In this document: piece after piece, positions 794-15,995 of the stretch
Layout: each line of letters starts with the position of its first letter
Numbering within the stretch: position 1 is the first letter of the stretch
Origin: Flagellimonas zhangzhouensis
Lineage (GTDB): Bacteria > Bacteroidota > Bacteroidia > Flavobacteriales > Flavobacteriaceae
Assembly (NCBI RefSeq): GCF_900102925.1
Contig: NZ_FNKI01000002.1
Span: 1,116,001-1,180,000 of the forward strand
Direction of reading: 5' to 3'
Length of the DNA stretch: 64,000 bases
Position numbers and translations under genes: made by a program
The notes under the pieces: generated by a model
Told to the model about the DNA's origin: nothing
Seen by the model: the letters and a program-made list of their open reading frames with translations, nothing else
The model's database searches: none

Positions 794-1276
794 TTATTCT
801 TCTATCCCAGCTTTTTTTCTTTGGGTTCTACCGTACTCAATAAATGAACCATCAAAAAACTTACTGAACGGATGTTTTAACAATGCGCCAAATCCTGCGG
901 AGAGCACTATGCCATCTACCAGTGATTTTCTGGATCTCCAATTTTTTGCACTCAACATCTTGTTCTCATTTTGCAAAAACAAATTTTCAACGTGTCGAAC
1001 TTCTGCGCCGAACAAATAAAACCCATGAATTTGTTCTTCTTCGCTCAATGAGTCGGGATCATCTCTAAACATTGTGATCAATCTTGCCAATTCTGGAGAA
1101 CTGCTAAAATTGAGCAGTATGTTGATGTCCAAAGCTGCAATCTCATGAAAAGTAGATGCTTGCGTTGCCTTTGTATTTTCTCTGATCTGAACACCAACAA
1201 ATATTAAAGATATTATGATGGCAACCGCTGATATAATTTCTGCGATCAATGCATATGCTTCCAGTGTTTCTAACAT
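794..1276 (-). CDS. Small single-pass membrane protein, unknown function
   Basis: 160 aa. Residues ~8-28 form one hydrophobic segment (IAEIISAVAIIISLIFVGVQ), followed directly by IRENTKATQAS and a soluble helical part. Proteins with this layout are common in bacteria but have no assigned function. The start codon lies 4 nt downstream of the stop of the DUF6090 gene at 1281-2024, so the two are probably co-transcribed. The plan, a membrane anchor followed by a Q-I-R/N-x-N motif, resembles DUF6090 (A-L-Q-I-N-N), although the sequences do not obviously align. No catalytic motif is seen. Confidence 0.65.
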   Translation of the reverse strand: MLETLEAYALIAEIISAVAIIISLIFVGVQIRENTKATQASTFHEIAALDINILLNFSSSPELARLITMFRDDPDSLSEEEQIHGFYLFGAEVRHVENLFLQNENKMLSAKNWRSRKSLVDGIVLSAGFGALLKHPFSKFFDGSFIEYGRTQRKKAGIEE

Positions 1277-1280
1277 ATCC

Positions 1281-2024
1281 TTAGTTTTTTTCCAGTTCTG
1301 ATGTTATTTCTTTTGCCTGGGATTTCATTTCTTTTATTGCGTAACTAATATTTTCAACGGCAATGGGTATATAACTACCTGAAACAATTAGAAAGTCATC
1401 GAATTGATCTTTGGTATGAATCAACTCATGATTTATGATATATTCCACTTTTATACCATCGGTTGTATCGGGGATAATTTTTTTCTCAAATATGGCAGCG
1501 ACCAAATCATTTTTTTTATACAGTTGTCTTCTTATAAATTCATTGACCCAAAACTCAACTGCTTTTAATTTTACCTCGTATAAATTTGTAATGCTGTTTC
1601 TAAGTTCGGGATTTGAAATTTTATCCAATCCTGTAGACTTGATGGACTCATACGGACTATAATTGATTGCAACCGCAATACCTCCTTGTCTTACATTATT
1701 AAAATGGTAGGCCAATGAATCCTGAGGGTAAGTTGATCCATTTCGAACAGTTGTCAACACAATAACGCTTTGTTTTAATTCTTCAAGATTTTTAATTCCG
1801 CCCTCCAAGTTGTAGATGTCTTTATCCAGGGCTTCTTTAACTTCCCTCAGCATGGTTAGTTCATAAGCTCTATTGATTCTTTCCTGATTCTTATTGTTGA
1901 TCTGAAGTGCAATTAAAATCCCTATAACTACCAAAACAATTTCGCCAACGGCATAAAGTAGGTACTTGCTGAACTTATTTTCGGAAAGCAATCGCTGACG
2001 GATGCTGCGGAAGAACTTGATCAT
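1281..2024 (-). CDS. DUF6090 family membrane protein (copy 1 of 9)
   Basis: 247 aa. The N-terminus MIKFFRSIRQRLLSENKFSK is basic, and a membrane segment follows at ~23-41 with the family motif GEIVLVVIGILIALQINN. The other ~200 residues are predicted helical and charged. By the positive-inside rule the short N-terminus is cytoplasmic and the large C-terminal part lies outside the inner membrane. The family (DUF6090) is uncharacterised. The first ~26 codons plus the leader are almost identical at DNA level to those of the gene at 2793-3578, but the C-terminal parts share no obvious similarity. It is probably co-transcribed with the small membrane protein downstream. Confidence 0.85.
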   Translation of the reverse strand: MIKFFRSIRQRLLSENKFSKYLLYAVGEIVLVVIGILIALQINNKNQERINRAYELTMLREVKEALDKDIYNLEGGIKNLEELKQSVIVLTTVRNGSTYPQDSLAYHFNNVRQGGIAVAINYSPYESIKSTGLDKISNPELRNSITNLYEVKLKAVEFWVNEFIRRQLYKKNDLVAAIFEKKIIPDTTDGIKVEYIINHELIHTKDQFDDFLIVSGSYIPIAVENISYAIKEMKSQAKEITSELEKN

Positions 2025-2055
2025 TGGAGGTTGGTTTCTCTAAAGATATGATTTT
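1951..2055. repeat. Duplicated leader/N-terminus block, copy 1
   Basis: 105 nt covering the first codons of the DUF6090 gene and its 5' leader. It matches 3505-3609 at 103 of 105 positions by direct counting; the differences are at 2007 and at the base just before the start codon. Outside the block the two genes diverge quickly. Confidence 0.9.
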
Positions 2056-2111
2056 AAAATATTGGAATTGAACGTGTTTACACACTACGATTTATTATAA
2101 GCTTTCCCGTT

Positions 2112-2759
2112 TTATTCCTCTTTTGTAATATATGCTTTGTGTATGTAATCCAATTTGGGGTAATTTTTCTTCAAATAGGTATTGCCTTGTGCAAAAATTT
2201 TATCCTGCTTATCATCCAATTCCGCTTCGTAGCCATCATAGAATGATTCCGCTACATCAAAACCTGAAATGACTTGGGCTACTACAGGAAACCCCGTTAC
2301 ATCCATAAATGAAATAGTATCTAAACGAGGGGAATTGTCCTTTAGGTTAATAAACAATTGTGTTTTCCTGGATTCTGGTCCTCCACGGGCAAAACTTACC
2401 GAACCTTGTGTGTTGGGTTTTAGTACTGGCTCATCTTTTATTTTAACCCTATTCCAGGATGATGAAATGGTACTATCATTGTGGATTCCAAATTGGGCAA
2501 CAAAATTGGGGAGTACCCTAAAGATGGCTATGTCTGTATAAAATCCGTGTTCTATTAATTGATAGAGCCTATCAACAGCAGCTGGTGACCATTCCCTTCT
2601 TGATTCGATTACAAAATCACCTTTGGTGGTTTCAAATTTCGCAGTGAAATATTCTGGTGCTTTTTCATTCGTCCACTTTAATTTAAAGTTGGATTTGCAT
2701 GAAAGAATTGTCACTAATACTACCCCAAGGAATAGGTACCTGTATTTTATTTTTTTCAT
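2112..2759 (-). CDS. Cyclophilin-type peptidyl-prolyl isomerase lipoprotein
   Basis: 215 aa. A lipoprotein signal ends in the lipobox VTILSCKSN, so it is probably membrane-anchored in the periplasm. The rest is a cyclophilin domain: F-x-T-x-KGDFVIE at the start, WSPAAVDRLYQLIEHGFYTD, the catalytic-region motif FRVLPNFVAQFG, and SFARGGPESRKTQLFINLKDN matching the usual MARxxxPxSxxxQFFI region. It would isomerise X-Pro bonds in exported proteins. It sits between two DUF6090 genes on the same strand. The family call is secure; the client proteins are unknown. Confidence 0.88.
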   Translation of the reverse strand: MKKIKYRYLFLGVVLVTILSCKSNFKLKWTNEKAPEYFTAKFETTKGDFVIESRREWSPAAVDRLYQLIEHGFYTDIAIFRVLPNFVAQFGIHNDSTISSSWNRVKIKDEPVLKPNTQGSVSFARGGPESRKTQLFINLKDNSPRLDTISFMDVTGFPVVAQVISGFDVAESFYDGYEAELDDKQDKIFAQGNTYLKKNYPKLDYIHKAYITKEE

Positions 2760-2792
2760 CTGTAATTTATTATTTGGTTAGTTGTGGTTTCA

Positions 2793-3578
2793 TTATAGTT
2801 CAGGTTTTTCTAACTCTTTTTTCAATTCATCTAAAATTTCGTAGATCCTAATATTTATTCTTTGGGTGTATTGAAAGTTTAGTTCTGCATCTACACCAAT
2901 CAAGGTGCTGACATGGTATATTGATTTTGAATCATTTTTATAGCCATTGATATCTGTTTTAAAATCCTTAATGGCCTCGTTCGAAATAATTCTATCTTTT
3001 CTACCATTGTTTTTCCACAAATATGTCATGATCTCCGAATCGAAGTATTTATATAAATGGAGATTGTATCGCTCTTTATGTTCATGGGCTTCCATGAATA
3101 AAAATGAATTTATCAAACTAAGATCACTTTTATAGCTAGAGATTTTTGCTTTTAAATCTTCATTCGTAATCAGGTTCAAATTACCAGATGAAATAATTTC
3201 ATCATACGTAGGCGTGTGGCTTTGGAACAACAGTGCTTTACTATTATAAAACAAAAAGCTGACCAAGGAATCTGCTCCCAAATTGGTCTTTCCTTCCAAA
3301 AAGGATTTTACCATCTTTCCATCTTGCATTTTTAAATTGGTCAACGAAGCTTGTGTGGATATTCGACTACTATCCTTTTTAAATTCTTTGTGCAATTGTT
3401 GCAACAGATAAAATTCCTTTTTGGAGTTCTTTTTTGATTCGTTCCAATTGTTGATCTGAAGTGCAATCAAAATACCGATCACCACCAGAACAATTTCGCC
3501 AATGGCATAAAGTAGGTACTTGCTGAACTTATTTTCGGAAAGCAATCGCTGACGGATGCTACGGAAGAACTTGATCAT
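2793..3578 (-). CDS. DUF6090 family membrane protein (copy 2 of 9)
   Basis: 261 aa. It has the same plan as its paralogues: basic N-terminus MIKFFRSIRQRLLSENKFSK identical to copy 1, a membrane segment at ~23-41 (GEIVLVVIGILIALQINN), then WNESKKNSKKEFYLLQQL opening a long helical extracytoplasmic part. Past residue ~50 it does not resemble copy 1. The leader and first codons are a near-perfect duplicate of copy 1, which suggests recent duplication or gene conversion confined to the 5' end. Function unknown. Confidence 0.85.
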   Translation of the reverse strand: MIKFFRSIRQRLLSENKFSKYLLYAIGEIVLVVIGILIALQINNWNESKKNSKKEFYLLQQLHKEFKKDSSRISTQASLTNLKMQDGKMVKSFLEGKTNLGADSLVSFLFYNSKALLFQSHTPTYDEIISSGNLNLITNEDLKAKISSYKSDLSLINSFLFMEAHEHKERYNLHLYKYFDSEIMTYLWKNNGRKDRIISNEAIKDFKTDINGYKNDSKSIYHVSTLIGVDAELNFQYTQRINIRIYEILDELKKELEKPEL

Positions 3579-3609
3579 TAGAGGTTGGTTTCTCTAAAGA
3601 TATGATTTT
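3505..3609. repeat. Duplicated leader/N-terminus block, copy 2
   Basis: Partner of 1951-2055 (103 of 105 positions identical). It includes the start codon region and about 30 nt of leader, so it may carry expression signals as well as the membrane-targeting N-terminus. Confidence 0.9.
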
Positions 3610-3659
3610 TAATGGATTGGATTCAGGAAGAATAAATTAAGGGATTTTAGTGTGCTGCT

Positions 3660-4046
3660 TTATTCCGTTATCTCGATCCAATTGCCTTCTGGGTCGGCAA
3701 TAACACTTTCGTAATACCCATCGCCAGTGGTTCTGGGTTCTCCGATTACGGTGAATCCGTTTTTGCGGATGGTTTCGGTAAGGGCATCTACCTTTTGCTT
3801 TGAACCCACGGATATGGCAAAATGGGCAAGGCCAAGTTGGGTATCCCTATTTTTAATAAATTCTGAAATATCAGGCCTGTGCATTAATTCGATGCGTGCT
3901 CCTTTTTTAAAGGAGAGGAAATAGGAACTGAATTTTTTCTTTGGATTGTAATATTTTTCGTTGGATTCCAAATCGAAAAAATGCAGATAAAAAGCTCTCA
4001 TTTTTTCTAGATCGGATGTCCAAATGGCGATATGCTCTAGCTTCAT
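3660..4046 (-). CDS. VOC family (glyoxalase/bleomycin-resistance fold) protein
   Basis: 128 aa, the usual length of a single VOC domain unit. The opening KLEHIAIWTSDLEKMRAFYL, the central GLAHFAISVGSKQKVDAL and the final GDGYYESVIADPEGNWIEI are the two beta-alpha-beta-beta-beta modules with likely metal ligands H5, H76 and E126 (approximate). No signal peptide, so it is cytoplasmic. Substrate cannot be told from sequence: glyoxalase-like, fosfomycin-like and dioxygenase-like members share this outline. It stands alone between the DUF6090 region and the AT-rich TIR insert. Confidence 0.85.
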   Translation of the reverse strand: MKLEHIAIWTSDLEKMRAFYLHFFDLESNEKYYNPKKKFSSYFLSFKKGARIELMHRPDISEFIKNRDTQLGLAHFAISVGSKQKVDALTETIRKNGFTVIGEPRTTGDGYYESVIADPEGNWIEITE

Positions 4047-4100
4047 TACACAGCTTTTTTAAAAGTAGGGAATTTGGTTTAGGGGAGGAGGGAACAATGA

Positions 4101-4123
4101 ATTATAGCTAGTGTTAGCTATAG
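4101..4123. repeat. GTTAGCT-type repeat, site A (perfect hairpin)
   Basis: TATAGCTA-GTGT-TAGCTATA forms an 8-bp perfect inverted repeat at 4103-4122, overlapping the stop codon of the gene at 4118-4960. It closely resembles site B at 4969-4992, and site C at 5893-5904 is the inverse of half of it. There is no T-tract, so it is not a clear terminator. Confidence 0.6.
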
Positions 4124-4960
4124 TACTTTGTAAAGATTTGCAAATCTTAATAACAATCTCTTTTTTCCACCCCTCTCAAAATTAAACTCTCCTTTAATAT
4201 CCTTTAAATTTTTGGAATCCCCTTCAATTTTAAGAACAGTCCCGATTCCAAACTTTATGTGTGCTACTTTATCACCTTTTTTTAAATTTGCCAATTCAGA
4301 AGGAGTGAACTTTTCATCGCTGAAGTCCATCTCATCAAATAATGGTTCTTCCTTTATTGGTTCTTGTAAATAATATTTTGGCTGATGTTTTCCTGAATTT
4401 TCAATTAAATTCAATCGTCTGTCAATTAAACTCAATTGGTTTAGGATAAGTTCTGTTTCTACGGAAATATTAGTAGAGTCTGATAATTCAGCGGGATTTA
4501 TACCTAATAATTTTACCAAGGAATTAACCTGATGTTCTCTTTCAGAATAAGTGATTTTTATTATTTCAGATAGATTTTCGACAATTTCCTGAACGTTATC
4601 GATTCTCAAATTTTCATCGTATTCTAAATCCCTAAACCCTTGAATGTCGAAAACGCGACTTGTTTTAGTATCTTTAATTAGTGCTACTGGTTTGTTAAAT
4701 GCTTGTCTAATTCCTAATTCATAGAGTACATTGGGATTTTGACTGCTCAAATCACAAATGGCCATATCTGAATCGATGATTTTCTTTAAAATGTCAAGTG
4801 CTATGTGATTAGTATTCAAAACATCATCTGCTCTAATTGGGTCAAATTCTGCTAGTACACAAGCTGGCTTTATTATATGTTCATAAACTCTTTTAAAATG
4901 CCCTTTTGGATAATTCGCATTATCACTTATTGGCATTATTATGAAACAGGTCTTTTTCAT
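4118..4960 (-). CDS. Deoxyribosyltransferase/TIR-like domain fused to a UvrD/PcrA-type Tudor domain
   Basis: 280 aa. Residues 1-135 match the nucleoside 2-deoxyribosyltransferase-like (TIR-like) fold: KKTCFIIMPIS at the start, ADDVLNTNHIALDILKKI, and SDMAICDLSSQNPNVLYELG, where E81 sits at the position of the conserved catalytic glutamate. A helical linker follows. Residues 226-280 (KKGDKVAHIKFGIGTVLKIE, then KRLLLRFANLYKV) strongly resemble the C-terminal Tudor-like domain of UvrD/PcrA helicases, which in PcrA contacts RNA polymerase. An immunity-type NAD/nucleotide-cleaving role is inference. The gene is AT-rich, has repeats at both ends, and follows a TIR gene. Confidence 0.75.
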   Translation of the reverse strand: MKKTCFIIMPISDNANYPKGHFKRVYEHIIKPACVLAEFDPIRADDVLNTNHIALDILKKIIDSDMAICDLSSQNPNVLYELGIRQAFNKPVALIKDTKTSRVFDIQGFRDLEYDENLRIDNVQEIVENLSEIIKITYSEREHQVNSLVKLLGINPAELSDSTNISVETELILNQLSLIDRRLNLIENSGKHQPKYYLQEPIKEEPLFDEMDFSDEKFTPSELANLKKGDKVAHIKFGIGTVLKIEGDSKNLKDIKGEFNFERGGKKRLLLRFANLYKVL

Positions 4961-4968
4961 TATTTAGT

Positions 4969-4992
4969 ATTATAGCCATTGTTAGCTGTAAT
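4969..4992. repeat. GTTAGCT-type repeat, site B
   Basis: ATTATAGCC-ATT-GTTAGCTGTAAT lies in the 35-nt gap between the TIR gene and the Tudor-fusion gene. It shares the framework ATTATAGC-NNN-TGTTAGCT-R-TA with site A. Its right half (4981-4992) is the exact inverse complement of site C, so the TIR gene is bracketed by 12-bp perfect inverted repeats. Confidence 0.6.
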
Positions 4993-4995
4993 TTT

Positions 4996-5892
4996 TTATT
5001 TATTAATAGCAGTATGAACCTTACTAATTATTAGTTCCACACTTTTTTTATATTCTTCTTCTGATAAATCTTCTTTATTTGGCCAAATTAAAGCAACAGT
5101 GTCCGCCAATGATGGTGAATATTCGTAAACCTCTTCTGTTGTTACTCCAAACCAAATTGGTAAAACAACACGCTCATTAAAAATCATCTCGCGTGTAAAG
5201 ATTGAATTAAACTCTTTTTTTCCCCAACCTGGATTGTTCAAAAAATTCTTTGTAATTAAGATTACACACTTTTTTACTTCTTTAATTCCTTTTTCTATTG
5301 ATTCTCTTAAACTATCTCCAATATTTAGCGAATATTCATCATACCAAACTGAACATAGTCTAGAGCTCAATCCATTCGCGAGAGGTTTTGCAATTAATTC
5401 TTTATCTCTGCTATCATGAGAAATAAATGCTAAAGGTTTATCGATTTCCATTTTCTTTTTTACGTAATCTCTACTCCTTATTGTAAAGAATAAATTATTC
5501 TCTTCTGCAATTTTAGCTAATACTTGTAAATCAGCTGCTCCTATGGGATTTTCAGTGTAGAAGTAAATTCGATTAGAATAAACAGAAGTATGTTTACCAA
5601 AATTTAAATCGTTGGCAAATCCTCCAATCATTTCTACTCCGTTAGCAAAATCAATATGGTCTTTAAACTTCATTAAAATTTCTCTGCAAAATAGCGCTGC
5701 TAAATTCGAGGCAGGAATATAAAATGTAAAGAAACGAGCTGAACTATTATGTTCTATTAGTACTTTTTCTTCAATTTCGATTATTTCATCCGTTTCATTA
5801 TCGTGTTTTATTCCGAACGTTAACTTTCTGTCAAGAGTTATGTATTTAAAATCATTTTTAAAATATGAATAAAGTTTAGTCATTCGATTCAA
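4996..5892 (-). CDS. TIR domain protein with an uncharacterised N-terminal domain
   Basis: 298 aa, no signal peptide. Residues 1-150 form a mixed alpha/beta domain that I do not recognise. Residues 152-298 are a TIR domain: KPLAFISHDSRDKELIAKPL is the beta-A/box 1 region, SVWYDEYSLNIGDSLRESIE the BB loop and helix B, KKCVILITKNFLNN strand D, and GWGKKEF carries the likely catalytic glutamate E227. Bacterial TIR domains commonly hydrolyse NAD or make cyclic ADP-ribose signals in phage defence; that role here is inference. It is upstream of the deoxyribosyltransferase-Tudor gene on the same strand, 35 nt apart, suggesting a two-gene unit. Confidence 0.8.
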   Translation of the reverse strand: MNRMTKLYSYFKNDFKYITLDRKLTFGIKHDNETDEIIEIEEKVLIEHNSSARFFTFYIPASNLAALFCREILMKFKDHIDFANGVEMIGGFANDLNFGKHTSVYSNRIYFYTENPIGAADLQVLAKIAEENNLFFTIRSRDYVKKKMEIDKPLAFISHDSRDKELIAKPLANGLSSRLCSVWYDEYSLNIGDSLRESIEKGIKEVKKCVILITKNFLNNPGWGKKEFNSIFTREMIFNERVVLPIWFGVTTEEVYEYSPSLADTVALIWPNKEDLSEEEYKKSVELIISKVHTAINK

Positions 5893-5904
5893 ATTACAGC
5901 TAAC
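5893..5904. repeat. GTTAGCT-type repeat, site C (inverted)
   Basis: ATTACAGCTAAC, one base upstream of the TIR start codon, is the exact reverse complement of 4981-4992. Together they look like recombination-site remnants or terminal inverted repeats. The stretch from 5905 to ~6076 holds no gene that I can support. Confidence 0.55.
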
Positions 5905-6076
5905 TTATTTATATAAGCATAAAACACATCTAACTACCCCAAAATAGGAGTTATAGCGATATTTAAAATCATCTGATACTAATATCACCGAATTTTCCCT
6001 CAAAATCAATAAGTTAATTTATCGAGTTGTGAAAAAGTTATCAACCAGCCCCATTTTTCCGTTTCAGGAGAAAATG

Positions 6077-6084
6077 TATATTTG
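6077..6084 (+). promoter_or_regulatory. -7 element TATATTTG upstream of the structured leader
   Basis: TATATTTG matches the Bacteroidota TAnnTTTG consensus exactly. Transcription would begin about 5-8 nt downstream, almost at the first base of the long inverted repeat (6088-6100). No convincing TTG -33 element is seen. Confidence 0.6.
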
Positions 6085-6087
6085 GAG

Positions 6088-6261
6088 TGCGAAACACATC
6101 TTTTATTCTATTGCCCCCAACCTCAACATGTCTTAAATAGTAGATACAGGGTAGGCAAACGGGTGCAAGTCCCGAAGACCAATCAGGGCGTAGCTTTGGT
6201 GTGTTTCGCGGTGACCTATCCTCATTTTAATTTTTAACCACTCTTGTTATGCGAAACACAC
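6088..6261 (+). ncRNA. Candidate structured leader RNA / RNA switch
   Basis: Several helices can be drawn. (1) 6088-6100 pairs with 6198-6210 (GCGAAACACA with TGTGTTTCGC as core). (2) AGGGTAGG 6148-6155 pairs with CCTATCCT 6215-6222. (3) CGGG-TGCAAGT-CCCG at 6160-6174 is a 4-bp hairpin with a 7-nt loop, like a tRNA T-arm. (4) ACCAA 6178-6182 pairs with TTGGT 6196-6200. GTGTGTTTCGC (6199-6209) can instead pair with GCGAAACACAC (6251-6261), starting at the G of the ATG of the next ORF. The third strand could therefore pair with the 5' end or with the start codon region. The RNA class is not recognised. Confidence 0.5.
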
Positions 6262-6524
6262 AAGGTCAAGAAAAAAGTTGCCCTAATTGCGGCAACGCGA
6301 ATGCGCAAAGCGCTCCCAAAATTTCCCAAATGCTTACCCCAGCGCAAATCCAATTGTTGGACTACGCCGATGCCTTGGATGGTCCCGATCTGGTAAAATC
6401 CCTAAAACTGCTGCACAATATTGCGGTGTACCATTCCTCCGAACCTTTGGATGAGGCGGAAAAAGATGCGCTCTTCAGCATAAAAGGACTGTGGGAGTGT
6501 ATTGAACGGATCATTGAAAGTTAA
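6249..6524 (+). CDS. Small protein with one CPNCG knuckle, unknown function
   Basis: 91 aa. It begins MRNTQGQEKSCPNCGNANAQ, a single CxxC zinc-knuckle-like motif, then a helical C-terminal domain (TPAQIQLLDYADALDGPDLV, then LWECIERIIES). No membrane segment. I do not recognise the family. The codons after the ATG contain GCGAAACACAC, a third copy of the repeat that makes up the leader structure upstream, so translation may be controlled by that RNA. Codon use looks ordinary for this genome and the reading is open throughout, which supports a real gene. The opposite-strand LRR gene follows after a G-rich repeat. Confidence 0.6.
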   Translation: MRNTQGQEKSCPNCGNANAQSAPKISQMLTPAQIQLLDYADALDGPDLVKSLKLLHNIAVYHSSEPLDEAEKDALFSIKGLWECIERIIES

Positions 6525-6526
6525 AA

Positions 6527-6658
6527 GTGGAAAGGGTTAATGGTTAAGGGTTAAGGGTTGTTGGGTGAAGGGTGAAGGGTGAAGGGTGAAGGGAGAAGGG
6601 TTAATGGTTGTTGGGTTAAGGGTGAAAGGTGAATGGTAAATGGTAAATGGTGGTAGTT
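6527..6658. repeat. G-rich degenerate tandem repeat (GGGTGAA/GGGTTAA units)
   Basis: Short units of GGGTGAA, GGGTTAA and GGTAAAT run between the 91-aa ORF and the convergent LRR gene. Four successive GGG runs spaced by TGAA make a G-quadruplex on the plus strand plausible. The units are too short and irregular for a CRISPR array. Confidence 0.75.
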
Positions 6659-6673
6659 GTACTATCCGAATGC

Positions 6674-7594
6674 TTATTGGCAATCTTCGTTCAATGCTTG
6701 GTATTCGGATAAGGATACTGTTGGTATTTGCTGTCCGCCCTGTATTTTAATACAGCTTAAATCTGGGTTTCTATCCACACGTAGGTCAATGATTGCTGTG
6801 TTCTGGCTCACATCCAAACGGGTCAATGCGTTGGAAGAGGCATAAAAATACATCAGGCTTGGACTGTTTTCCAGATTGATGTTTTGCAGCGTATTGTTGG
6901 AGATCACCAAGGTTTCCAAAAGGGGATTGGAGCTTAAGTCCACCGAGTTCAATTGATTGGTTGTCAACAACATACTTTTAAGATTGGGCGCTCCAGAGGC
7001 ATCAAAAGCCGTTAAAAGGTTGTCGCTCATCAGCAAATGTTCCATGGATGTATTGGTAAGGCTAAAATCCTCAAAGTAGTTATAGGATAGGTTCAACTCC
7101 TTTAATTGTGTTGCCTGCTCCAGTCCAACAATCTCGGTCAATTCGTTTACCAACGCATGCACCAAGATCAGATCGGTATTTTTACTCAGGTCGAGGGTGG
7201 TGAGATAATTGTTCTGAAGATACAAAGTGTCCAATTTTGTATTGGAACTTACATCGATGTCCACAAGGTTTTGTCCTACTGCCGATAAATAGGTGATGTT
7301 CACAAACCCCTCGATGCCTGTAAGGTCTTCGATTTCGCCAAAGTGGCTGTTTAGGTTCAAATCCAATCGCTGAACTTGTTCGGCATCTTCCCGTAGCATT
7401 TGCCCATTAACGGTGCCATCGGTGTCTATGCCTTGATCAATCAATATTTGCTCAAAATGGCTGTCAGGGATCAAAAGGTATTGGCTGCTTGGCAAGTTGT
7501 CATTGGCATTATCGTCGGAACACGAACCTATAATTAAGAGGGAGAAAATAGAAATTAGGGCAAAGCAGGTGTTTGCCATTTTGGAAATGAACAT
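6674..7594 (-). CDS. Leucine-rich-repeat lipoprotein
   Basis: 306 aa. A lipoprotein signal ends in IGSCSDDN; translation may begin at Met6 (MANTCF), since the first five residues are not needed. From ~85 to 280 there are about nine LRR-type units of 20-21 residues, such as LDTLYLQNNYLTTLDLSKNT, LKELNLSYNY and LETLVISNNTLQNINLENSP, with the L-x-x-L-x-L-x-x-N-x-L pattern. The C-terminus ends in a capping segment with cysteines (DLSCIK and NEDCQ). It is a surface or periplasmic binding protein; the partner is unknown. Closely similar LRR lipoproteins are frequent in flavobacteria. Confidence 0.85.
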   Translation of the reverse strand: MFISKMANTCFALISIFSLLIIGSCSDDNANDNLPSSQYLLIPDSHFEQILIDQGIDTDGTVNGQMLREDAEQVQRLDLNLNSHFGEIEDLTGIEGFVNITYLSAVGQNLVDIDVSSNTKLDTLYLQNNYLTTLDLSKNTDLILVHALVNELTEIVGLEQATQLKELNLSYNYFEDFSLTNTSMEHLLMSDNLLTAFDASGAPNLKSMLLTTNQLNSVDLSSNPLLETLVISNNTLQNINLENSPSLMYFYASSNALTRLDVSQNTAIIDLRVDRNPDLSCIKIQGGQQIPTVSLSEYQALNEDCQ

Positions 7595-7713
7595 TCTGAT
7601 TGTTTTTTGATGATGAGCATATATGACTCGGAATCATCAAAATTGTTACATTATGTAAGTTCGGGACATCAATTTTGCAACATGATCAAGGGATTCAACC
7701 TAGCATGGGAACA

Positions 7714-9191: not shown

Positions 9192-9939
9192 TTGAGTTTA
9201 TTTTAAGTAAAAGCTGGTTGGCGAGATCTATGGCATTTTTATACAGCCCGTGTTGTTGCTGTATCTGAAAATACCGCCCAAATACCATGGTCTCAAACGG
9301 ATTGTCGTTTATAAAACTGGTTGGGTCAATTTCTTGAGGGGTTCTTGGGTCATCCTTATAATAATCGCGAATGGGTTTCCAATTGGTCTTTGAATTTACC
9401 GTGAAGCTATAATGGTCAAAAAAATACGGTTCGTATCGTATTTTGATGAACGTATTGGAAATGTCTTCCCGAGCTAAAATATGATCTAGAGTTGTGTAAT
9501 AATTTAAGATCATATCCTGAACATCTTGATCAACATAGGATAGTTCGCCTGAATTATTGATGGTTTCCAAACCACTTTTATTGGGCGATGTGGACTTCTC
9601 CAGCAACAGATAAAACATATACATGGTGGTATTGTCGTCAATAGGGTCCAACGTCTGGAATTGTCTGGTCAGCTTTTCGGCATAGATCAACGTGGTATCG
9701 GTAAACTGGTACATGTAATTGAGTTGCACTAGATCTTCCTTGATGTTTTGGGCTATGGTTTTTAAATGCAGATTCGCAGAGGCTGTGTTGTTCCTGTTTT
9801 GGTTCCAGTTGTTGATGCCCAAAGCGATTAAAATCCCGATCACCACCAACATGATCTCGCCAAGTGCATATTTGAGGTATTTTCGTGTCTTCCCTTCGTT
9901 GAGAAGATCTTGCCGAATGGTTCTGAAGAATTTAATCAT
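9175..9939 (-). CDS. DUF6090 family membrane protein (copy 5 of 9)
   Basis: 254 aa, first gene of the triplet 9939-7714. N-terminus MIKFFRTIRQDLLNEGKTRK with the membrane segment GEIMLVVIGILIALGINNWN; the usual Q of ALQINN is G here. The outer part carries YYTTLDHILAREDISNTF and a proline-rich stretch (DDPRTPQEIDP) not seen in the other copies. The last 17 nt overlap the start of copy 4. It lies 33 nt downstream of the beta-lactamase-like gene, so it may belong to the same transcript. Confidence 0.85.
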   Translation of the reverse strand: MIKFFRTIRQDLLNEGKTRKYLKYALGEIMLVVIGILIALGINNWNQNRNNTASANLHLKTIAQNIKEDLVQLNYMYQFTDTTLIYAEKLTRQFQTLDPIDDNTTMYMFYLLLEKSTSPNKSGLETINNSGELSYVDQDVQDMILNYYTTLDHILAREDISNTFIKIRYEPYFFDHYSFTVNSKTNWKPIRDYYKDDPRTPQEIDPTSFINDNPFETMVFGRYFQIQQQHGLYKNAIDLANQLLLKINSNDQVL

Positions 9940-9972
9940 GTTTGGTTAGTGGTTAGGTTGAAAAAATTAAGA

Positions 9973-10875
9973 TTATTGTTCCATCAAATAATCATAAATG
10001 GTTTTTGAAATGCCTGCAAGTTGTTCGGTTCCCTTGTCAAAATCCTTTAGGTTTTTGGAGAGCAGGACCAGCACATAGCTTCGCCCATCTGGCAAATACA
10101 CAATCCCAGCATCGTGGTGAACGCCTGTTATAGAACCCGTTTTGTGGGCCACTTCAACATTATCAGGTAATTCATGCGGAATAATTTCATTGAATTGTTG
10201 GTCTTTTAAAATATTGATCATGGCCTCGCAGTCGGTTTCGGTTCCTGCTTTATTGGTGGCAATAGCCTGCATGATGATCAATAAATCTTTGGCGGTGGTG
10301 GAATTGCTCAACCCCAGATCATAGGCCTTTTGGTCCTCGACGCCTCGTAGCACTTCTATTTTATCGGCACCCAGATCCCGCATGGTGGCGGTAACTTTTT
10401 TGGCATCCACCAGTTCGATCAACACATTGGTGGCCAAGTTACTACTCACGGTAATCATGCTGTACATTAAATCTTTGAGTGCTACGTTAGTGTTGATCTT
10501 GCTATAAATTACATCATTACTGTCGTCTCCAATATCCATGCTGTACGGACTGCTGTCCACAATACTTTTAAATTCATTGATCAATAAAATGGAATCGTTC
10601 AAATTGATTTTTCCTGAAGCCTGTTGTTTGAAAAGCTCGATCATTACGGGCACTTTCATGGTGCTTGCGGCATGAAATTCTTCACTTTCATTTATGAATA
10701 GGGTATCCGATGGTTCTGCTAGATTCAATAATGCCACAGCCACATCTCCTTCAATAGAATCGATTTGTGTACGGATTTTGGTTTCCAACGCTTCTTTTGG
10801 GGTTGGTTTTGGTTGACAGGCTGTTATGCAGTAGCAAAAAATGACAGTTAGTATTAATTTGGTTTGGTTGATCAT
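9973..10875 (-). CDS. Class A beta-lactamase-like serine hydrolase, lipoprotein
   Basis: 300 aa. A lipoprotein signal ends CITACQPK. The active-site motifs of class A enzymes are in order: S71-T-M-K74 (AASTMKVP), S144-S-N146 in the SDN position, E180 in the region of the omega-loop glutamate (GVEDQKAYDLGLSNSTTA), and K245-T-G247 (AHKTGSITG). All residues needed for acylation and deacylation seem present, so it may hydrolyse beta-lactams, but many flavobacterial homologues are described only as serine hydrolases. It is flanked by DUF6090 genes on the same strand and no LysR or BlaR regulator is nearby. Resistance is not shown by sequence alone. Confidence 0.82.
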   Translation of the reverse strand: MINQTKLILTVIFCYCITACQPKPTPKEALETKIRTQIDSIEGDVAVALLNLAEPSDTLFINESEEFHAASTMKVPVMIELFKQQASGKINLNDSILLINEFKSIVDSSPYSMDIGDDSNDVIYSKINTNVALKDLMYSMITVSSNLATNVLIELVDAKKVTATMRDLGADKIEVLRGVEDQKAYDLGLSNSTTAKDLLIIMQAIATNKAGTETDCEAMINILKDQQFNEIIPHELPDNVEVAHKTGSITGVHHDAGIVYLPDGRSYVLVLLSKNLKDFDKGTEQLAGISKTIYDYLMEQ

Positions 10876-10932
10876 ATTGGGTTGGTTTTGTTTTTAGAAA
10901 GTTCTAGTCAGCGAGTCAAGTTTTTCAAAGGA

Positions 10933-11712
10933 TTAATTTTCTTTTAATTCCTTATTTATCAAATCAATGGTTCTGTTTGTGATCGTTTCAAGACCAAACT
11001 TTACCCAAATCTCATCGCTGTGCTGGTTTTGATAAACCCTATATAGATCCATGTAGGTTTCACTGTCTTTAACCAAAGCTGCAATTTCATCATCGGATAA
11101 CTTAAAATCTGGGTGTATGGGAATTGACGGAAGAGTCTTTAACTGCTCAGGAAGTTCAAATACCAAACCTAATTTCGCCCAAAGCTTGTCGAATTTATTA
11201 TCAATGTCATTGGTGTACAATAGACTCCCTCGATCTTGGATAGCATTTCTCGATTCCATATAATCCTTTAGTATGGAGAGGTTTTGTTTGACCGTGTCAC
11301 TCAACATAACAAATTTCCCTGATGAGATGGCTTCTTCCTGAACAGAAGTTAGAATGGCCAATTCGCCATTGTGCTGCATGTCATTTAAATACAGTTTTAG
11401 GCTATCCATGGGAATATGTAAAGATCCCGTGGAGAATTGGAGCACCTTATTCAGAATTGCATTGCTAGTGTGCAAACCGAGGATATGGTGTTCCATTCTC
11501 AATTTATTTTCCATCAGTTCTGCTCTGATGTTGAGCATCAATTTTTTCTTACTGGTTTCTTCCTTTCGGTGTTCGTTCCAATTATTGATTTGAAGAGCAA
11601 GCAGAATTCCAATGACCACCAAAATGATTTCCCCCAAAGCATATAACAAGTATTTGGTAAATTGATTTTCTGTCAACATACGTTGCCTAATTTTTCTAAA
11701 GAATTTAATCAT
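10933..11712 (-). CDS. DUF6090 family membrane protein (copy 6 of 9)
   Basis: 259 aa. N-terminus MIKFFRKIRQRMLTENQFTK, membrane segment GEIILVVIGILLALQINN, then WNEHRKEETSKKKLMLNIRA and a helical outer part ending in TIDLINKELKEN. The start overlaps the stop of copy 7 by 4 nt, so the two are translationally coupled. The DNA for the membrane segment matches copy 4 for about 40 nt with a single change, although their C-terminal parts are unrelated by eye. Function unknown. Confidence 0.85.
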   Translation of the reverse strand: MIKFFRKIRQRMLTENQFTKYLLYALGEIILVVIGILLALQINNWNEHRKEETSKKKLMLNIRAELMENKLRMEHHILGLHTSNAILNKVLQFSTGSLHIPMDSLKLYLNDMQHNGELAILTSVQEEAISSGKFVMLSDTVKQNLSILKDYMESRNAIQDRGSLLYTNDIDNKFDKLWAKLGLVFELPEQLKTLPSIPIHPDFKLSDDEIAALVKDSETYMDLYRVYQNQHSDEIWVKFGLETITNRTIDLINKELKEN

Positions 11713-12428
11713 TGGTTGGGTAGTTTTTCATCAATTATAGCCACGAGTTCCTGGGATTCGAGCAAGGCTTTTTCCATAGCCTCTATGGTGCCATCCGCAT
11801 TTCCAAGGTTCACTTTTAAGCTGATCAGGATAAATTCATCATTTAAAAAAGAATCCATGTCTTTTGGGGTTCCATATGCTTCAAATAGCCAATCTGAAAA
11901 ATGCTCACGCACGTAGGGCAGCCAAATGGATTGAAACTCATTCGTGTCATCATCTATTTCGGCCTGAATTCTGGGTAATGAAAGATCGTAATAGGAGGTT
12001 AGTTTACTGCGGAACCCATCATCCTTAATTTTGCCGATGCCCATATCCTTGAGTAAATCAAAGCCGTTTTTGGTGAATTCAACATTGTGTTTAAGCATTA
12101 AGTACCCCAAGAGCTTATCAAAATCTTCGACCATTGCCTTTTTATGGTCCAAAATGTCAATCACCGTTTGTTGTTTGTGATATTCTTCATTCTTACGGTT
12201 CAGGGCATCGTGTAAAACCTTTTGGTCTAATAGGAGATCATTTTTAATTTCAACCAAGGCATTTTCCACTTCCCTTTGTTGTTTGTTGTTTTCATTCCAA
12301 TTATTGATTTGCAGTGCTAGAAGAATTCCAATGACCACTAGTATGATCTCACCTATGGCATATAAGAGGTATTTTTTAACTCGATGGGTATCCACTAATT
12401 TTTTTCTGGTTTTTCGAAATAATTTCAT
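11709..12428 (-). CDS. DUF6090 family membrane protein (copy 7 of 9)
   Basis: 239 aa, the most divergent N-terminus of the set: MKLFRKTRKKLVDTHRVKK instead of MIKFFR-RQ-LL-E, followed by the standard membrane segment GEIILVVIGILLALQINN and WNENNKQQREVENALVEIKN. The outer part has NGFDLLKDMGIGKIKDDGFR, reminiscent of the S/T-G-x-L/I-x-x-I motif found in several copies near the middle of the outer domain. It is upstream of copy 6 (4-nt overlap) and 24 nt downstream of the amidohydrolase gene. Confidence 0.85.
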   Translation of the reverse strand: MKLFRKTRKKLVDTHRVKKYLLYAIGEIILVVIGILLALQINNWNENNKQQREVENALVEIKNDLLLDQKVLHDALNRKNEEYHKQQTVIDILDHKKAMVEDFDKLLGYLMLKHNVEFTKNGFDLLKDMGIGKIKDDGFRSKLTSYYDLSLPRIQAEIDDDTNEFQSIWLPYVREHFSDWLFEAYGTPKDMDSFLNDEFILISLKVNLGNADGTIEAMEKALLESQELVAIIDEKLPNQ

Positions 12429-12452
12429 GTATTGGTTTTGGTTGGGGGCTGA

Positions 12453-14189
12453 CTATTTTTTAAAAACAGTTTGGCCTTCTTTTATGGATTCCAACACCTC
12501 GATGGTATGAATATCCAAGGGGTCTATTTTTAATGGGTTTTTGTCCAAGATCACCAAATCTGCCAGTTTACCCTCGGTCAATGTACCTTTGGTGTCTTCC
12601 TCAAAATATTGGTTGGCTGCCCATATGGTCAGTGTTTTTAATCCTTCATAAGCTGAAATCCGTTGGTCAGGGCCCAAAATTTGACCGCTTCGAGTCACTC
12701 GGTTTACCGTAGCATCTAAAACCCGAATAGAATTAGGGAATGTTACTGGTGCATCGTGGTGGGAAGTCAAATTTAAACCCGCATCTAGTACATCCCTACA
12801 TGGAGAAATATAATCGGCCCGTGGCTTGCCCAAAACGGACTCTTTGTGCCAATCGCCCCAATAAAAGGTATGCATGGGGAAGAGGGAGGGATAAATATCA
12901 AGTTCAACCAAATCAGGAATTTGGTCTTTTCTTAATGTTTGACCGTGAATCAGCACGGTTCTGTGGTCGGGATAGCCAAATTCATCCTCTGCAGCTTTCA
13001 CTGCCATTAAATATTGATCAATGGCGGCATCTCCATTACTGTGACAAAGTATTTGCCATTTGTTTTTAAAGGCGGTTTTTACGTGCCCAATGGCTGCTTC
13101 GTCGGTCATCACGGGATAGCCTTTGTAGCAGCCTGTTCTGCCTTCAGGATTTTTAAAGTAACAATCAGTAAGCCATGCGGTTTTTCCTTGGGGCGACCCG
13201 TCGAGGGTGAGTTTTACGCCACCAATTTTAAATTTGTTCTTGTACGCATGTGTGGGGACATAATCACCTTCTTCCAAGTAATCTGTTCCAAGGGTAATGT
13301 CGGGATAGGCGACCACATCAATAAAATAGGCATTGTTTTCTGCTGCTGCGATCAACGATGCAACCTGATCCGTTGTGGTTCTGCCGTCCTGGGCAGTGAG
13401 ATATCCTTTTTTTGCGTATTCTTCCTGTCCTTTTTGTATGCACTGCATGGCCAGTTCCGTATCCATTTTGCCTAATAGCGGGAATAAAACATTAAATAAT
13501 CCGGCTTCTTCCAAAACGCCGTTCGGATTTCCTTCGGCATCACGTCTCAAAACACCACCTTCAGGGTCAGGGGTGTCCTTGTTGTACCCCAAAATCTCCA
13601 TGGCCTTGGTGTTGATGGAGCCCAAATGTCCAGATTGATGCAATATAAGTACGGGCAATTCCGTGCTTACTTTATCCAAATCAGTGGCTTTGGGATGGTC
13701 TTTTTCAGCTAATTGGGAATCATCGTAACCATTGCCAACAATCCAGCCCACTTTATTGATAAGATATTTGCCCGCTTCTGAATCTTTATATTCAACTAAA
13801 GTCTTTACAATTGACGAATAATCCGCACCAGGTCCATCAGGTGGAGGTAAAACATTTGCACAAAGTGCAGTGAAACCAACGCTAAAGAAGTGCCCATGTC
13901 CATCCAAAAACGCAGGAACTAGGGTGTTGCCGCTTAAATCAATTTGGTTTATTCCATCGGTAAATTGGGTCAAGGCGTCTGCTTTGGTGCCTACAAATGC
14001 AATCTTACCATCTTTTTCGACCAATGCTTCCGCATAGGTTGGTGTATCACCTTCCATGGTTAAAATATCCCCATTGAAGTAAAGGTTTGTGGAGAACTCA
14101 ACGGTTGGCTCTGATGATTCTTTAGAGCTGTTTTTGCAAGAGGTAGCTAAAAGGCATAGCACCCATATTACGGCACATACTTTTTTCAT
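12453..14189 (-). CDS. YtcJ-type amidohydrolase, lipoprotein
   Basis: 578 aa. A lipoprotein signal ends LLATSCKNSS. The amidohydrolase-3 fold is complete: NLYFNGDILTMEGDTPTYAE at the start, the metal-ligand motif FLDGHGHFFSVGF, a long insert, the KLTLDGSPQGKTAWL region with the conserved lysine, LCHSNGDAAIDQYL, VLIHGQTLR, and the final TSHHDAPVTFPNSIRVLDA and GKLADLVILDKNPL. This family cleaves amide or related bonds of unknown small substrates and is exported here. It heads the 12.4-10.9 kb segment on the minus strand, immediately before two DUF6090 genes. Confidence 0.87.
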   Translation of the reverse strand: MKKVCAVIWVLCLLATSCKNSSKESSEPTVEFSTNLYFNGDILTMEGDTPTYAEALVEKDGKIAFVGTKADALTQFTDGINQIDLSGNTLVPAFLDGHGHFFSVGFTALCANVLPPPDGPGADYSSIVKTLVEYKDSEAGKYLINKVGWIVGNGYDDSQLAEKDHPKATDLDKVSTELPVLILHQSGHLGSINTKAMEILGYNKDTPDPEGGVLRRDAEGNPNGVLEEAGLFNVLFPLLGKMDTELAMQCIQKGQEEYAKKGYLTAQDGRTTTDQVASLIAAAENNAYFIDVVAYPDITLGTDYLEEGDYVPTHAYKNKFKIGGVKLTLDGSPQGKTAWLTDCYFKNPEGRTGCYKGYPVMTDEAAIGHVKTAFKNKWQILCHSNGDAAIDQYLMAVKAAEDEFGYPDHRTVLIHGQTLRKDQIPDLVELDIYPSLFPMHTFYWGDWHKESVLGKPRADYISPCRDVLDAGLNLTSHHDAPVTFPNSIRVLDATVNRVTRSGQILGPDQRISAYEGLKTLTIWAANQYFEEDTKGTLTEGKLADLVILDKNPLKIDPLDIHTIEVLESIKEGQTVFKK

Positions 14190-14342
14190 AGTGTTTAGTG
14201 TTTAAAGGTTTTATAGCTAACCCTACTAAGTTCGATGAAATAAGTTTTGAATACAAGCTTTTATTATTGAATTTCAGTTCATTAAGGTTGCATGGGGAGA
14301 ATGTAAAAAACGTTTTTTCTAAATCGGTACATTTTTTATGAC

Positions 14343-15086
14343 TTAAAGAGATTCAAGCTTTTTTATCTCAGCATGTATCTTGTCATGTAATCTTTTTACA
14401 TATTTCTGGGTATTTCTATACCGAGCAATGGCGAATGTCTTCATACTTATCGCTACAGAAACAATATTGGACATTTCCTGGTTTTTAATCAATTCGTCAT
14501 AATTATTTGGAATAGTCAATAATGCATCATCTTCTAGGGACTCAAACACAAAGTTTTTTATATAAAATGGGGTGAACGTATTAGAAATAATGTTTTCCAT
14601 TTCTGCAGGGAAATCAGTAAAAATTGATTTTAATCTAGTTTCATAAATAAAGGAGATATCGAGCTTTAAGGAATCATTGGAAATATAAGGCAGACCTTCA
14701 GATTTTAAATTTTCAAAAGCAGCATTGTTATAGGAGTTTTGATAACTGATCAGAGGAATGGATAAATAGGATACTATGGTATCATTAAAAGGACGCTTAT
14801 TTTTTAAATGGTTCAATAGAAATTTCCCATGCTCCAGTTGTTCAGTTTCCAACTCAATAGCGAAATCTAAAGCTTTATAATTGGATAGTAATGAGTTTTT
14901 AATTTCCTTAAGAAGCGTTATTTCGGTTTGTCGGTCCTCTTGTTTGTTGTTCCAATTGTTAATGTTTACGGCAATTAAAATACCAATTACCACAAGTATT
15001 ATTTCCCCAATGGCATATAAAATGTATTTGGTGATTATATTTTCTAGAATTGTTTTCTGTCGGTTTTTTCTAAAGAATTTAGGCAT
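14343..15086 (-). CDS. DUF6090 family membrane protein (copy 8 of 9)
   Basis: 247 aa. N-terminus MPKFFRKNRQKTILENIITK, membrane segment GEIILVVIGILIAVNINNWN (V-N replaces the usual L-Q), then NKQEDRQTEITLLKEIKNSL. The outer part has AAFENLKSEGLPYISNDSLK, a version of the S-x-G-L-x-x-I-S/T-N motif seen in several copies. It is followed by 153 nt with no gene or strong signal before the amidohydrolase gene. It lies 24 nt downstream of copy 9, so the two are probably co-transcribed. Confidence 0.85.
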   Translation of the reverse strand: MPKFFRKNRQKTILENIITKYILYAIGEIILVVIGILIAVNINNWNNKQEDRQTEITLLKEIKNSLLSNYKALDFAIELETEQLEHGKFLLNHLKNKRPFNDTIVSYLSIPLISYQNSYNNAAFENLKSEGLPYISNDSLKLDISFIYETRLKSIFTDFPAEMENIISNTFTPFYIKNFVFESLEDDALLTIPNNYDELIKNQEMSNIVSVAISMKTFAIARYRNTQKYVKRLHDKIHAEIKKLESL

Positions 15087-15110
15087 TGAATATTGGCTTT
15101 GCTTAAAATG

Positions 15111-15863
15111 TTAATCGATACGTTCTAGGTAGGTGTCTATTAGGGTCTTTGTATTTTTTATCTGATCTAGAGTCAGTCCTAGATCATAAAGATTGTCCTC
15201 TTTAATTTGCTCGCTGTAATGAAGCAGCCTTAAAAATTCAGGGTCATTTTTCAGGGCAATAAAGTCTTTTGGGGAATAGAGTTTCGAGGGAATGGAGCCT
15301 GAAGTATTTCTCTCTGTTTTTAGGTCTTCAAAATATTCAAGGTATCTGGGTATTACGTATTCGTAGGTGGTTTTTTTGGCGGAAGTCTCCCGTTCCTTGA
15401 TAAAGGAATAATAGGTTTCGTAAAGGTTGGTGATGGATTCTCTAATGGAGTCATTGGCAAGAATATGAAACCCAATATTGGAAAGGTTTTTGTAACCGCT
15501 CCATTTTAAGGTGTAAGTGGCACTAAATGTAACCAAGCCAAACCTACGTTTTAAACTATCTGGGACTGTTTCGACGTTTTCTAGTGCATTCTCAAGGATA
15601 TGGATATTTTTAATGGCCCCTTGATTCAAGTACACATCATTTTCCAATGAAAGAATATCCTCTTCGAGGTTTTCAGCTATCTCTCGAAGTACCTCAATCT
15701 CCATTTGGTCATCTTTGCGGTTTTCGTTCCAATTGTTGATTTGTAGCGCAATCAGGATGCCGATGACAACCAAAATAATTTCGCCGATGGCATATTGAAG
15801 GTATTTTTTGGTTTTACCCTCAGAAAGTAAATCCTGCCTGATTTTTCTAAAGAATTTCAGCAT
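15111..15863 (-). CDS. DUF6090 family membrane protein (copy 9 of 9)
   Basis: 250 aa from the ATG at 15863. A longer reading from 15911 adds 16 residues that no paralogue has, so the shorter start, which gives MLKFFRKIRQDLLSEGKTKK, is preferred. Membrane segment GEIILVVIGILIALQINN, then WNENRKDDQMEIEVLREIAE, and a helical outer part containing LKWSGYKNLSNIGFHILAND, which looks like the shared S-x-G-x-x-x-L motif. First gene of the 15.9-14.3 kb pair and the last copy in the array. Function unknown. Confidence 0.85.
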   Translation of the reverse strand: MLKFFRKIRQDLLSEGKTKKYLQYAIGEIILVVIGILIALQINNWNENRKDDQMEIEVLREIAENLEEDILSLENDVYLNQGAIKNIHILENALENVETVPDSLKRRFGLVTFSATYTLKWSGYKNLSNIGFHILANDSIRESITNLYETYYSFIKERETSAKKTTYEYVIPRYLEYFEDLKTERNTSGSIPSKLYSPKDFIALKNDPEFLRLLHYSEQIKEDNLYDLGLTLDQIKNTKTLIDTYLERID

Positions 15864-15947
15864 GGTTGAGGTTGGATAGTGTTGGCTATTTTGGATTAAT
15901 TTACAAAACAATCCAATAAGTGGTTGACAAACATTTGGTTATCTACC

Positions 15948-15973: not shown

Positions 15974-15995
15974 GTAATTTATAAGGTTTGATGGA

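Follow-up and report, generated by a model that had tools for sequence, protein, structure and literature searches.

Why one bacterial locus should hold many membrane-protein genes that begin almost alike and continue so differently is the question raised by a 64,000-nucleotide (nt) stretch of the Flagellimonas zhangzhouensis genome (assembly GCF_900102925.1, contig NZ_FNKI01000002.1), called here the window. Nine DUF6090 paralogues lie between its positions 1281 and 15863; they are named D1 to D9 by rising window coordinate. All nine had been located by an earlier sequence-only reading and were confirmed: the genes are intact open reading frames (ORFs) of 239–261 amino acids (aa) on the minus strand, and their products match the PF19578 profile at 25.2–55.3 bits, above the curated Pfam cut-off of 23.5 bits. 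The D9 frame spans 15111–15911 from a TTG start and 15111–15863 from an ATG start. Pfam gives no function for PF19578, in agreement with the earlier remark that the family has no known role. In the comparisons below, G-numbers designate genomes (G000 for the present one) and L-numbers the sequence records or loci compared.

The explanation that we prefer, with a probability of roughly 0.55 for the whole, is that envelope modules are traded between these genes through homology arms and that the proteins act in recognition or immunity. Exchange of outer domains at the shared anchor is very probably the mechanism. The exchange itself is shown, at the sequence level, by breakpoints, chimeras and synonymous divergence; ordinary homologous recombination as its agent, and the direction of each event, are what we infer. 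The earlier interpretation, in which outer domains are selected for variety, is partly supported. It missed the main signal, namely that the 'constant' anchor appears to be the part exchanged at the DNA level. The variation lies in the choice of outer domains that a species has and in the anchor to which each of them is fused.

Anchor and outer domain in proteins and in DNA

In an alignment of the nine proteins, 24 invariant columns fall within residues 1–46 and a single one later (G132 in the numbering of the first sequence); D1 is 25–35% identical to the other eight. Mean column entropy among 74 family members was 0.81 bits over residues 1–46 versus 3.13 bits beyond, which bears out the constant anchor and divergent outer part described earlier. 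The columns of the membrane segment GEI-LVVIGILIAL, which follows a basic N-terminus, are mostly invariant or nearly so both in the nine proteins and in the 74 sequences, and the PF19578 profile starts at this segment (residue 27 or 28); the constant anchor is therefore a family-wide trait. In the DNA, nine direct repeats of 141 nt, 60–100% identical to the reference copy, occupy the nine 5' ends. Direct repeats of at least 25 nt in positions 600–19000, searched for with no attC model, comprise only the anchor and leader repeats, one G-rich tract and two two-copy repeats.

Outer domains at least 60% identical were treated as orthologous and compared between genomes, and an anchor deficit was scored when the same-codon fraction of the anchor lay more than 0.2 below that of its own outer domain. 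Members shorter than 180 aa were excluded from the larger-set comparisons, and orthologue pairs share members, so that they are not independent tests. At an outer nt identity of 0.80 or more, a deficit was found in 19 of 37 DUF6090 pairs versus 3 of 167 control-gene pairs (12/24 versus 1/39 at 0.88 or more, 7/13 versus 2/128 at 0.80–0.88); the genes of G034 were part of this comparison. Synonymous divergence (dS, saturated values being recorded as 9.0) was compared in 97 orthologue pairs. In the 31 with an outer dS below 0.4, the median dS was 0.48 for anchors versus 0.18 for outer domains; anchor dS exceeded twice the outer value in 18 of these 31 pairs, and five anchors were saturated. What is most constant in the protein is thus often, between orthologues, the DNA that diverges most, as is expected if an anchor has been replaced by that of another gene.

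Candidate parents could be named for some genes. Upstream of its start, gene L107 of G036 matches gene a of a tandem pair in G015 (83–100% in 30-nt windows); within the coding sequence it matches a over nt 0–90 (83–90%) and the second gene of the pair, b, from nt 90 onward (83–97%), and a and b are unrelated to each other beyond about nt 150. D6 is 97% identical to gene Q of G021 over nt 0–60 and, from nt 120, 80–100% identical to the outer domain of Q's tandem neighbour. A patch-like outcome was seen in the copies of Q in G021 and G048, which are 93–100% identical upstream, 73–87% over nt 0–120 and 90–100% after. A scan of tandem pairs returned 83 combinations in which a gene carries the outer domain of the second member of a tandem pair elsewhere. 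In 13 hand-picked pairs, identity shifts at nt 60–150 in those that were exchanged; at their downstream ends, four alignments stop within 50 nt past the stop codon, one ends 38 nt short of it, and the remainder continue further. Among genus pairs, 52 combine a conserved upstream region with outer domains that do not reach the orthologue threshold (in 40 of the 52 they are below 40% or uncovered); 130 are conserved in the outer domain only, 42 in both and 7136 in neither.

Exchange also seems to act within one genome. D1 and D2 share 112 of their first 120 coding bases together with an identical 29-nt leader before the ATG, and beyond this their identity is at background; they are a plain case of same-genome homogenisation, a process that appears occasional in this genus. 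Only the upper tail of the same-codon distribution of paralogue anchors is enriched within genomes (5/514 versus 11/7054 between genomes, reached in 10 of 2000 permutations), so that same-genome conversion is taken to be occasional and many donors to be unsampled. Against the expectation from own codon usage, in genomes with at least four members (five array genes of G034 left out), the anchor same-codon level showed a clear excess in L065 (0.57/0.43), L051 (0.57/0.44), L058 (0.67/0.47) and G038 (0.52/0.39), and slight or no excess in the present genome (0.43/0.39) and in L060 (0.44/0.47); homogenisation is stronger in Winogradskyella aurantia (L065) and Maribacter arcticus (L051) than here. 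A general argument that anchors are more alike within genomes across the whole family was dropped, the mean difference not being significant inside the genus, and the whole-family count (24/723 within versus 42/20105 between) was set aside because it mixes genera that differ in codon use.

The leader shared by D1 and D2, which the other seven array genes lack, is a promoter-like element. It contains TATCTTTA, which agrees at five of six fixed positions with the −7 box of flavobacteria, whose consensus is TAnnTTTG in the part of the source used here (PMC9723704). Its 21-nt core, with up to three mismatches, occurs in seven copies in the genome, at six places and always directly before a DUF6090 start; a reversed-pattern control gave one genome match. 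The motif CCAACC was found within 30 nt before the start in 45 of 126 DUF6090 members of the genus versus 19 of 243 other genes of at least 200 aa in the fetched loci, although predicted starts could be misplaced in either group of genes.

Outer domains also appear to have moved between species. The core controls were MutS2 and one flank oxidoreductase; two core genes are few, and the list of flank and passenger dS values left out five array genes of G034. In 44 of the 91 orthologue pairs, outer dS was less than half that of MutS2, and in 35 of these 44 the anchor had a higher dS than the outer domain. Under a stricter definition (outer dS below 0.35 with MutS2 dS above 1), 18 of the 91 pairs remained, spread over 11 of 22 outer clusters; anchor dS was above outer dS in 16 of the 18, and five of the 18 involve G034, whose MutS2 dS is only 1.09. 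For D1 in G000 and G049, the outer dS is 0.10, that of the anchor 0.70 and that of the flank oxidoreductase 2.93, and MutS2 is saturated.

Several observations weigh against this account of exchange. Pairs with outer nt identity of 0.70–0.80 showed no anchor deficit (0/24, versus 1/207 in controls). Some close pairs bear no sign of exchange, such as D7 and its G034 orthologue (anchor dS 0.03, outer 0.16); this pair is also among the 18 strict-transfer pairs, as is the D6 outer type in G021 and G048 (anchor 0.20, outer 0.30). Only 5 of the 83 tandem combinations carry the upstream region of the first gene, and 10 carry that of the second; one of the 5 uses L048 rows, and in 3 of the 5 the anchor, too, goes with the first gene over its 5' half. 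The upstream region of D6 differs from that of Q. Within the genus, paralogue anchors of one genome have on average no higher same-codon level than anchors of different genomes (the observed difference was reached in 719 of 2000 permutations). Passenger dS is low in the same genome pairs (G000–G048: cyclophilin gene 0.20, gene 794–1276 0.30), so that transfers may span stretches longer than the outer domains.

Proposed mechanism, role and alternative explanations

AlphaFold models were obtained for D9 (predicted local distance difference test, pLDDT, 91.8; predicted template modelling score, pTM, 0.84) and D6 (pLDDT 84.4, pTM 0.75); both were built from the same 74 sequences in changed order, so that they are not fully independent. 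They show the same order of helices: 2–14, 18–96 or 18–94, short helices near 102–113 and 122–131, then about 138 to 177 or 180 (broken at 166–170 in D6) and about 207 to 249 or 258. Two members very different in sequence are thereby predicted to share one helical fold. The conserved outer positions in the 74 members, which include G131 (84%), L127, N137 and position 140, would form a common core where the chain turns from the short helices into the second long one. The more positive flank of a membrane helix is cytoplasmic (the positive-inside rule). Of 208 members, 206 carry more positive charge on the N side of the membrane segment than on its C side, which places the helical bundle outside the inner membrane. 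No PDB structure matched the D9 model at E ≤ 0.001 (best E 0.032, axonemal coiled coils), no viral structure model matched it significantly (best E 0.18), and the family profile gave a single match among PDB sequences (E 0.047).

The mechanism that we propose is the following. Each protein would be a rod: after a basic cytoplasmic tail, the single membrane helix would run on without a break into a very long helix, with which two more long helices pack into a bundle outside the inner membrane; the fold is predicted and the topology deduced from charge. The stretch that encodes the tail and the membrane helix, about 120–140 nt and in some genes joined by the leader, is repeated at gene starts and would serve as a homology arm. 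Recombination between the repeats would swap, delete or insert cassettes that encode outer domains, in many cases together with passenger genes, and an outer domain acquired from another species would be welded to a resident anchor. The outcome would be a traded repertoire of envelope proteins, in which each type is conserved and the set varies. In its most developed form, which we offer as a speculation that may well fail, DUF6090 would be a widespread Bacteroidota family whose promoter-anchor segments are recombination traps: outer domains taken up from other species would be plugged onto resident anchors at a favoured position among the codons of the membrane helix, giving each species a rack of periplasm-facing sensors or immunity rods. 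Such a homology-arm capture for envelope immunity would resemble cassette systems in its logic and have no recombinase.

A role in envelope recognition or immunity, directed at varied outside agents such as competitor toxins or phages, is put forward tentatively. Such a role would agree with the patchy repertoires of conserved types, the exchange between species and the location in the envelope. The following results count in the opposite direction. None of the nine proteins matched a toxin family over the Pfam cut-off (residues 13–82 of D2 gave a sub-threshold ADP-ribosyltransferase match, 20.3 bits versus 25). D1, D4 and D9, the three of the nine that were scanned, matched no PADLOC defence model at E 0.01. 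No constant partner was seen: the 121 neighbouring ORFs formed no cluster larger than 3 (3 genomes at most), and the 112 Pfam families matched by the 100 neighbour representatives each occurred in 4 members at most. No immunity family was matched in Pfam or NCBIfam, and PADLOC matches among the neighbours were spread over 53 families, each seen in 2 members at most.

Two specific systems were considered and rejected. Self-immunity of type VI secretion was set aside because VipA (PF05591) was found in 0 of 60 genus genomes; a divergent Bacteroidota subtype could escape this profile, whose only control match was Escherichia coli. Carriage by phages or plasmids was set aside because D9 had no match in 50,697 phage records or in plasmids, and the family alignment had none in viral contigs. 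The lack of phage, plasmid or viral matches, of a type VI secretion marker and of a constant partner argues against a few specific systems.

Among the alternatives, a domestic job in the envelope (sensing, assembly or quality control of envelope proteins), with a copy number that follows niche rather than conflict, survives best, although we consider it doubtful. The family is nearly ubiquitous in the genus (a match in 58 of 60 genomes) and mostly under purifying selection, and the negative phage, plasmid, viral-contig and defence-library searches are as a domestic job would have them. Two of the 60 genomes have no match, however, and others have up to 20; frequent exchange and transfer would be unusual for housekeeping parts, and no neighbour recurs in more than 3 genomes. 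Copy number and order vary in relatives, as the sequence-only reading had asked to be compared: at the array site, which was reached through the MutS2 gene and read over some 20 kb (in G021, 13.9 kb), a member is present in at least 9 of 20 relatives (8 on ATG starts only, plus G018). In the phylum, 44 of 296 sampled genomes had a match, in a search that scored at most 11 candidates per genome, so that per-genome counts are lower bounds.

That the outer domains diversify in an arms race under selection for variety, as was first proposed, now appears improbable. The outer domains of paralogues are indeed very divergent, with the entropies given above, and copy number differs widely between species. 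Pairwise ratios of non-synonymous to synonymous divergence (dN/dS) had a median of 0.083 over the 97 orthologue pairs, a median lowered by eleven saturated outer values, and of 0.11 over the 31 closest, with a maximum of 0.58; selection for variety at the residue level is not borne out, and in orthologous outer domains purifying selection predominates. Five of the 31 close pairs lie at 0.30–0.58, three of them D1, and single outer types such as D1 may change faster. Three outcomes had been named beforehand as speaking against the proposal: similar outer structures are predicted (one fold for D9 and D6), whereas neither equal divergence along the whole length nor a fixed array in relatives was found.

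Slightly less probable still is that these are ordinary old paralogues, in which function kept the anchor, the outer domains drifted, and codon or mRNA constraint left the 5' DNA alike. The anchor is conserved at the protein level throughout the family, the same-codon level of the present genome is near expectation, and within the genus levels do not differ within and between genomes, all of which speaks for this explanation. Constraint predicts anchors that are more alike, yet about half of the close pairs have anchors less alike than their own outer domains, unlike controls, and chimeras with parental tandem pairs are not explained. Finally, a site-specific system that moves cassettes, either a chromosomal integron or a recombinase-associated immunity array, is very improbable: the genes point one way, and the passengers look like accessory genes, two of them matching the integron-associated family Cass2, but the integron integrase TIGR02249 was over the cut-off in 0 of 60 genus genomes (weaker matches occurred in 60/60 and in 14/14 controls), no recombinase was found among ten passenger and flank genes (2112–18517), and the breakpoints lie inside coding anchors rather than at intergenic sites, three junctions being overlapping genes.

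Layout of the array and its surroundings

The features of the locus are collected in Table 1. Three of the eight junctions between DUF6090 genes are overlaps (8442–8445, 9175–9191 and 11709–11712); four further junctions hold passenger genes, and the gap before 15111 is 24 nt. Gene direction is single across 794–18977, except for a 91-aa ORF at 6249–6524 (plus strand). The array sits on a 1.47-Mb contig. The whole genome has 19 DUF6090 matches, of which ten lie outside the array, one of these ten being a truncated frame of 87 aa from the chosen start. The nearest named match of D5 is in Muricauda sp. NBRC 101325 (L048).

Table 1. Positions of the DUF6090 genes, their leaders and repeats, and the passenger genes in the window
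Feature	Position	Strand	Basis or remark
Small protein, 160 aa, hydrophobic N-terminus	794–1276	−	Beside D1 also in G048 and G036
D1, DUF6090	1281–2024	−	Leader and 5' anchor near-identical to D2; outer domain in G049, G036 and G048 at dS 0.10, 0.17 and 0.19
D1 leader, 29 nt, AAAATCATATCTTTAGAGAAACCAACCTC, promoter-like	2027–2055	−	Sequence comparison with D2
Cyclophilin-type peptidyl-prolyl isomerase	2112–2759	−	Profile match
D2, DUF6090	2793–3578	−	G048 outer domain 98% identical, outer dS 0.11
D2 leader, 29 nt, identical to D1 leader	3581–3609	−	Sequence comparison
Glyoxalase-superfamily protein	3660–4046	−	Profile match
Tudor-domain protein (4118–4960) and TIR-domain protein (4996–5892)	4118–5892	−	Profile matches
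Leucine-rich-repeat protein	6674–7594	−	Profile match
D3, DUF6090	7714–8445	−	Overlaps D4 by 4 nt; upstream and anchor resemble a G021 gene with an unrelated outer domain
D4, DUF6090	8442–9191	−	Overlaps D5 by 17 nt
D5, DUF6090	9175–9939	−	Sister-species copy (L048/G034) 98% identical
Beta-lactamase2, beta-lactamase-fold enzyme	9973–10875	−	Profile match
D6, DUF6090, apparent chimera	10933–11712	−	5' anchor resembles Q of G021, outer domain as in the gene next to Q in tandem; structure modelled
D7, DUF6090	11709–12428	−	Overlaps D6 by 4 nt; G034 orthologue with anchor dS 0.03 below outer dS 0.16
Amidohydrolase	12453–14189	−	Profile match
D8, DUF6090	14343–15086	−	G034 orthologue: outer nt identity 0.97, anchor nt identity 0.84
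D9, DUF6090	15111–15863	−	Structure modelled, pLDDT 91.8
Anchor repeats	1884–2024, 3438–3578, 8305–8445, 9051–9191, 9799–9939, 11572–11712, 12291–12431, 14946–15086, 15723–15863	−	Repeat search

The protein encoded at 794–1276 had no match in Pfam, NCBIfam or PADLOC, and it was rejected as a DUF6090 relative by profile comparison (probability 0.2%). The Tudor-domain protein gave a weak match to a TIR effector (E 5.9e-6), and the adjoining TIR-domain protein matched the PADLOC models PDC-S66 (2.2e-39) and ThsB (4.1e-23); these two genes, which lie within the array, may form a defence pair. A perfect 11-bp inverted repeat (6199–6209/6251–6261, found by eye) overlaps the start of the 91-aa ORF; the region 6199–6261 occurs once in the genome and has no Rfam match, and in positions 1–20000 no RNA family reached its gathering score. 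A G-rich tract of GGGTTAA- and GGGTGAA-like units (6511–6652) lies between the 91-aa ORF and the leucine-rich-repeat gene. Farther along the window, a 1089-aa protein (41011–44280, plus strand) matches three models, QatA, PDC-S20 and PifA, weakly at its N-terminus (E from 1e-9 to 2e-7).

Other genera also have DUF6090 arrays, of about ten genes each, at L052:10001–19088 (Flavobacteriaceae MAR_2010_72) and L065:4688–16786 (W. aurantia), in which the anchors resemble each other within a record. G177 and G101 had 93 and 49 DUF6090 candidates at first look, of which 11 each were scored, and far larger expansions are likely there; most of the listed G101 candidates lie on its contig C2, at 77–130 kb.

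Comparison with known systems

No paper on DUF6090 was found in the open full-text literature searched, nor in the same literature one on gene conversion among tandem paralogous membrane proteins of Flavobacteriaceae, most subscription papers lying outside the search. A common family with no known role now has a visible mechanism of turnover. Its natural chimeras suggest that anchor and outer domain are interchangeable, and the outer domain that is carried should predict strain phenotype. A caution also follows: a constant N-terminus with a variable C-terminus need not mean diversifying selection at the residue level, since here it is the constant part that appears to be exchanged.

Two systems would share the logic of variable modules with DUF6090, as far as the portions of the sources used here describe them. 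In contact-dependent growth inhibition (CDI), conserved upstream coding DNA could allow the fusion of variable toxin/immunity modules, and displaced orphan modules form tandem arrays (PMC4927057). Unlike these, the DUF6090 locus has no toxin family over the cut-off and no large secreted protein or toxin/immunity pairing was seen in it; all nine genes are complete, each with its own anchor. The recombinase-associated acquired interbacterial defence (rAID) arrays are groups of orphan immunity genes by which Bacteroidota are protected from competitors and which, according to the part of the account drawn upon, show patterns of positive selection (PMC12247911). In contrast to what is described there, no recombinase was found in the ten DUF6090 neighbours tested and no immunity family was matched, and the outer domains are mostly under purifying selection.

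The closest known design, by analogy, would be that of the Erp proteins of Borrelia burgdorferi (OspE/F-related lipoproteins of the cp32 prophages), of which DUF6090 is not a member. In the passages of the source available (PMC10016077), a single promoter, leader and localisation sequence is combined with many outer parts, and recombination between the genes is frequent. The DUF6090 anchor differs in being an inner-membrane helix instead of a lipoprotein signal (no dedicated lipoprotein scan was made). Unlike the prophage-borne erp genes, the DUF6090 arrays lie with their passengers on a 1.47-Mb contig, and D9 was absent from the phage and plasmid records searched. The outer domains of DUF6090 appear homologous, given the one fold predicted for two members, and the breakpoints fall inside the anchor codons. 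To the shared leader of the Erp genes, as that source presents it, the promoter-like DUF6090 leader may or may not correspond: it is identical before D1 and D2 and found in seven copies in the genome, and it is lacking from seven of the nine array genes. In DUF6090, as in Erp within the same limits of the source, recombination appears to join one N-terminus to different outer parts.

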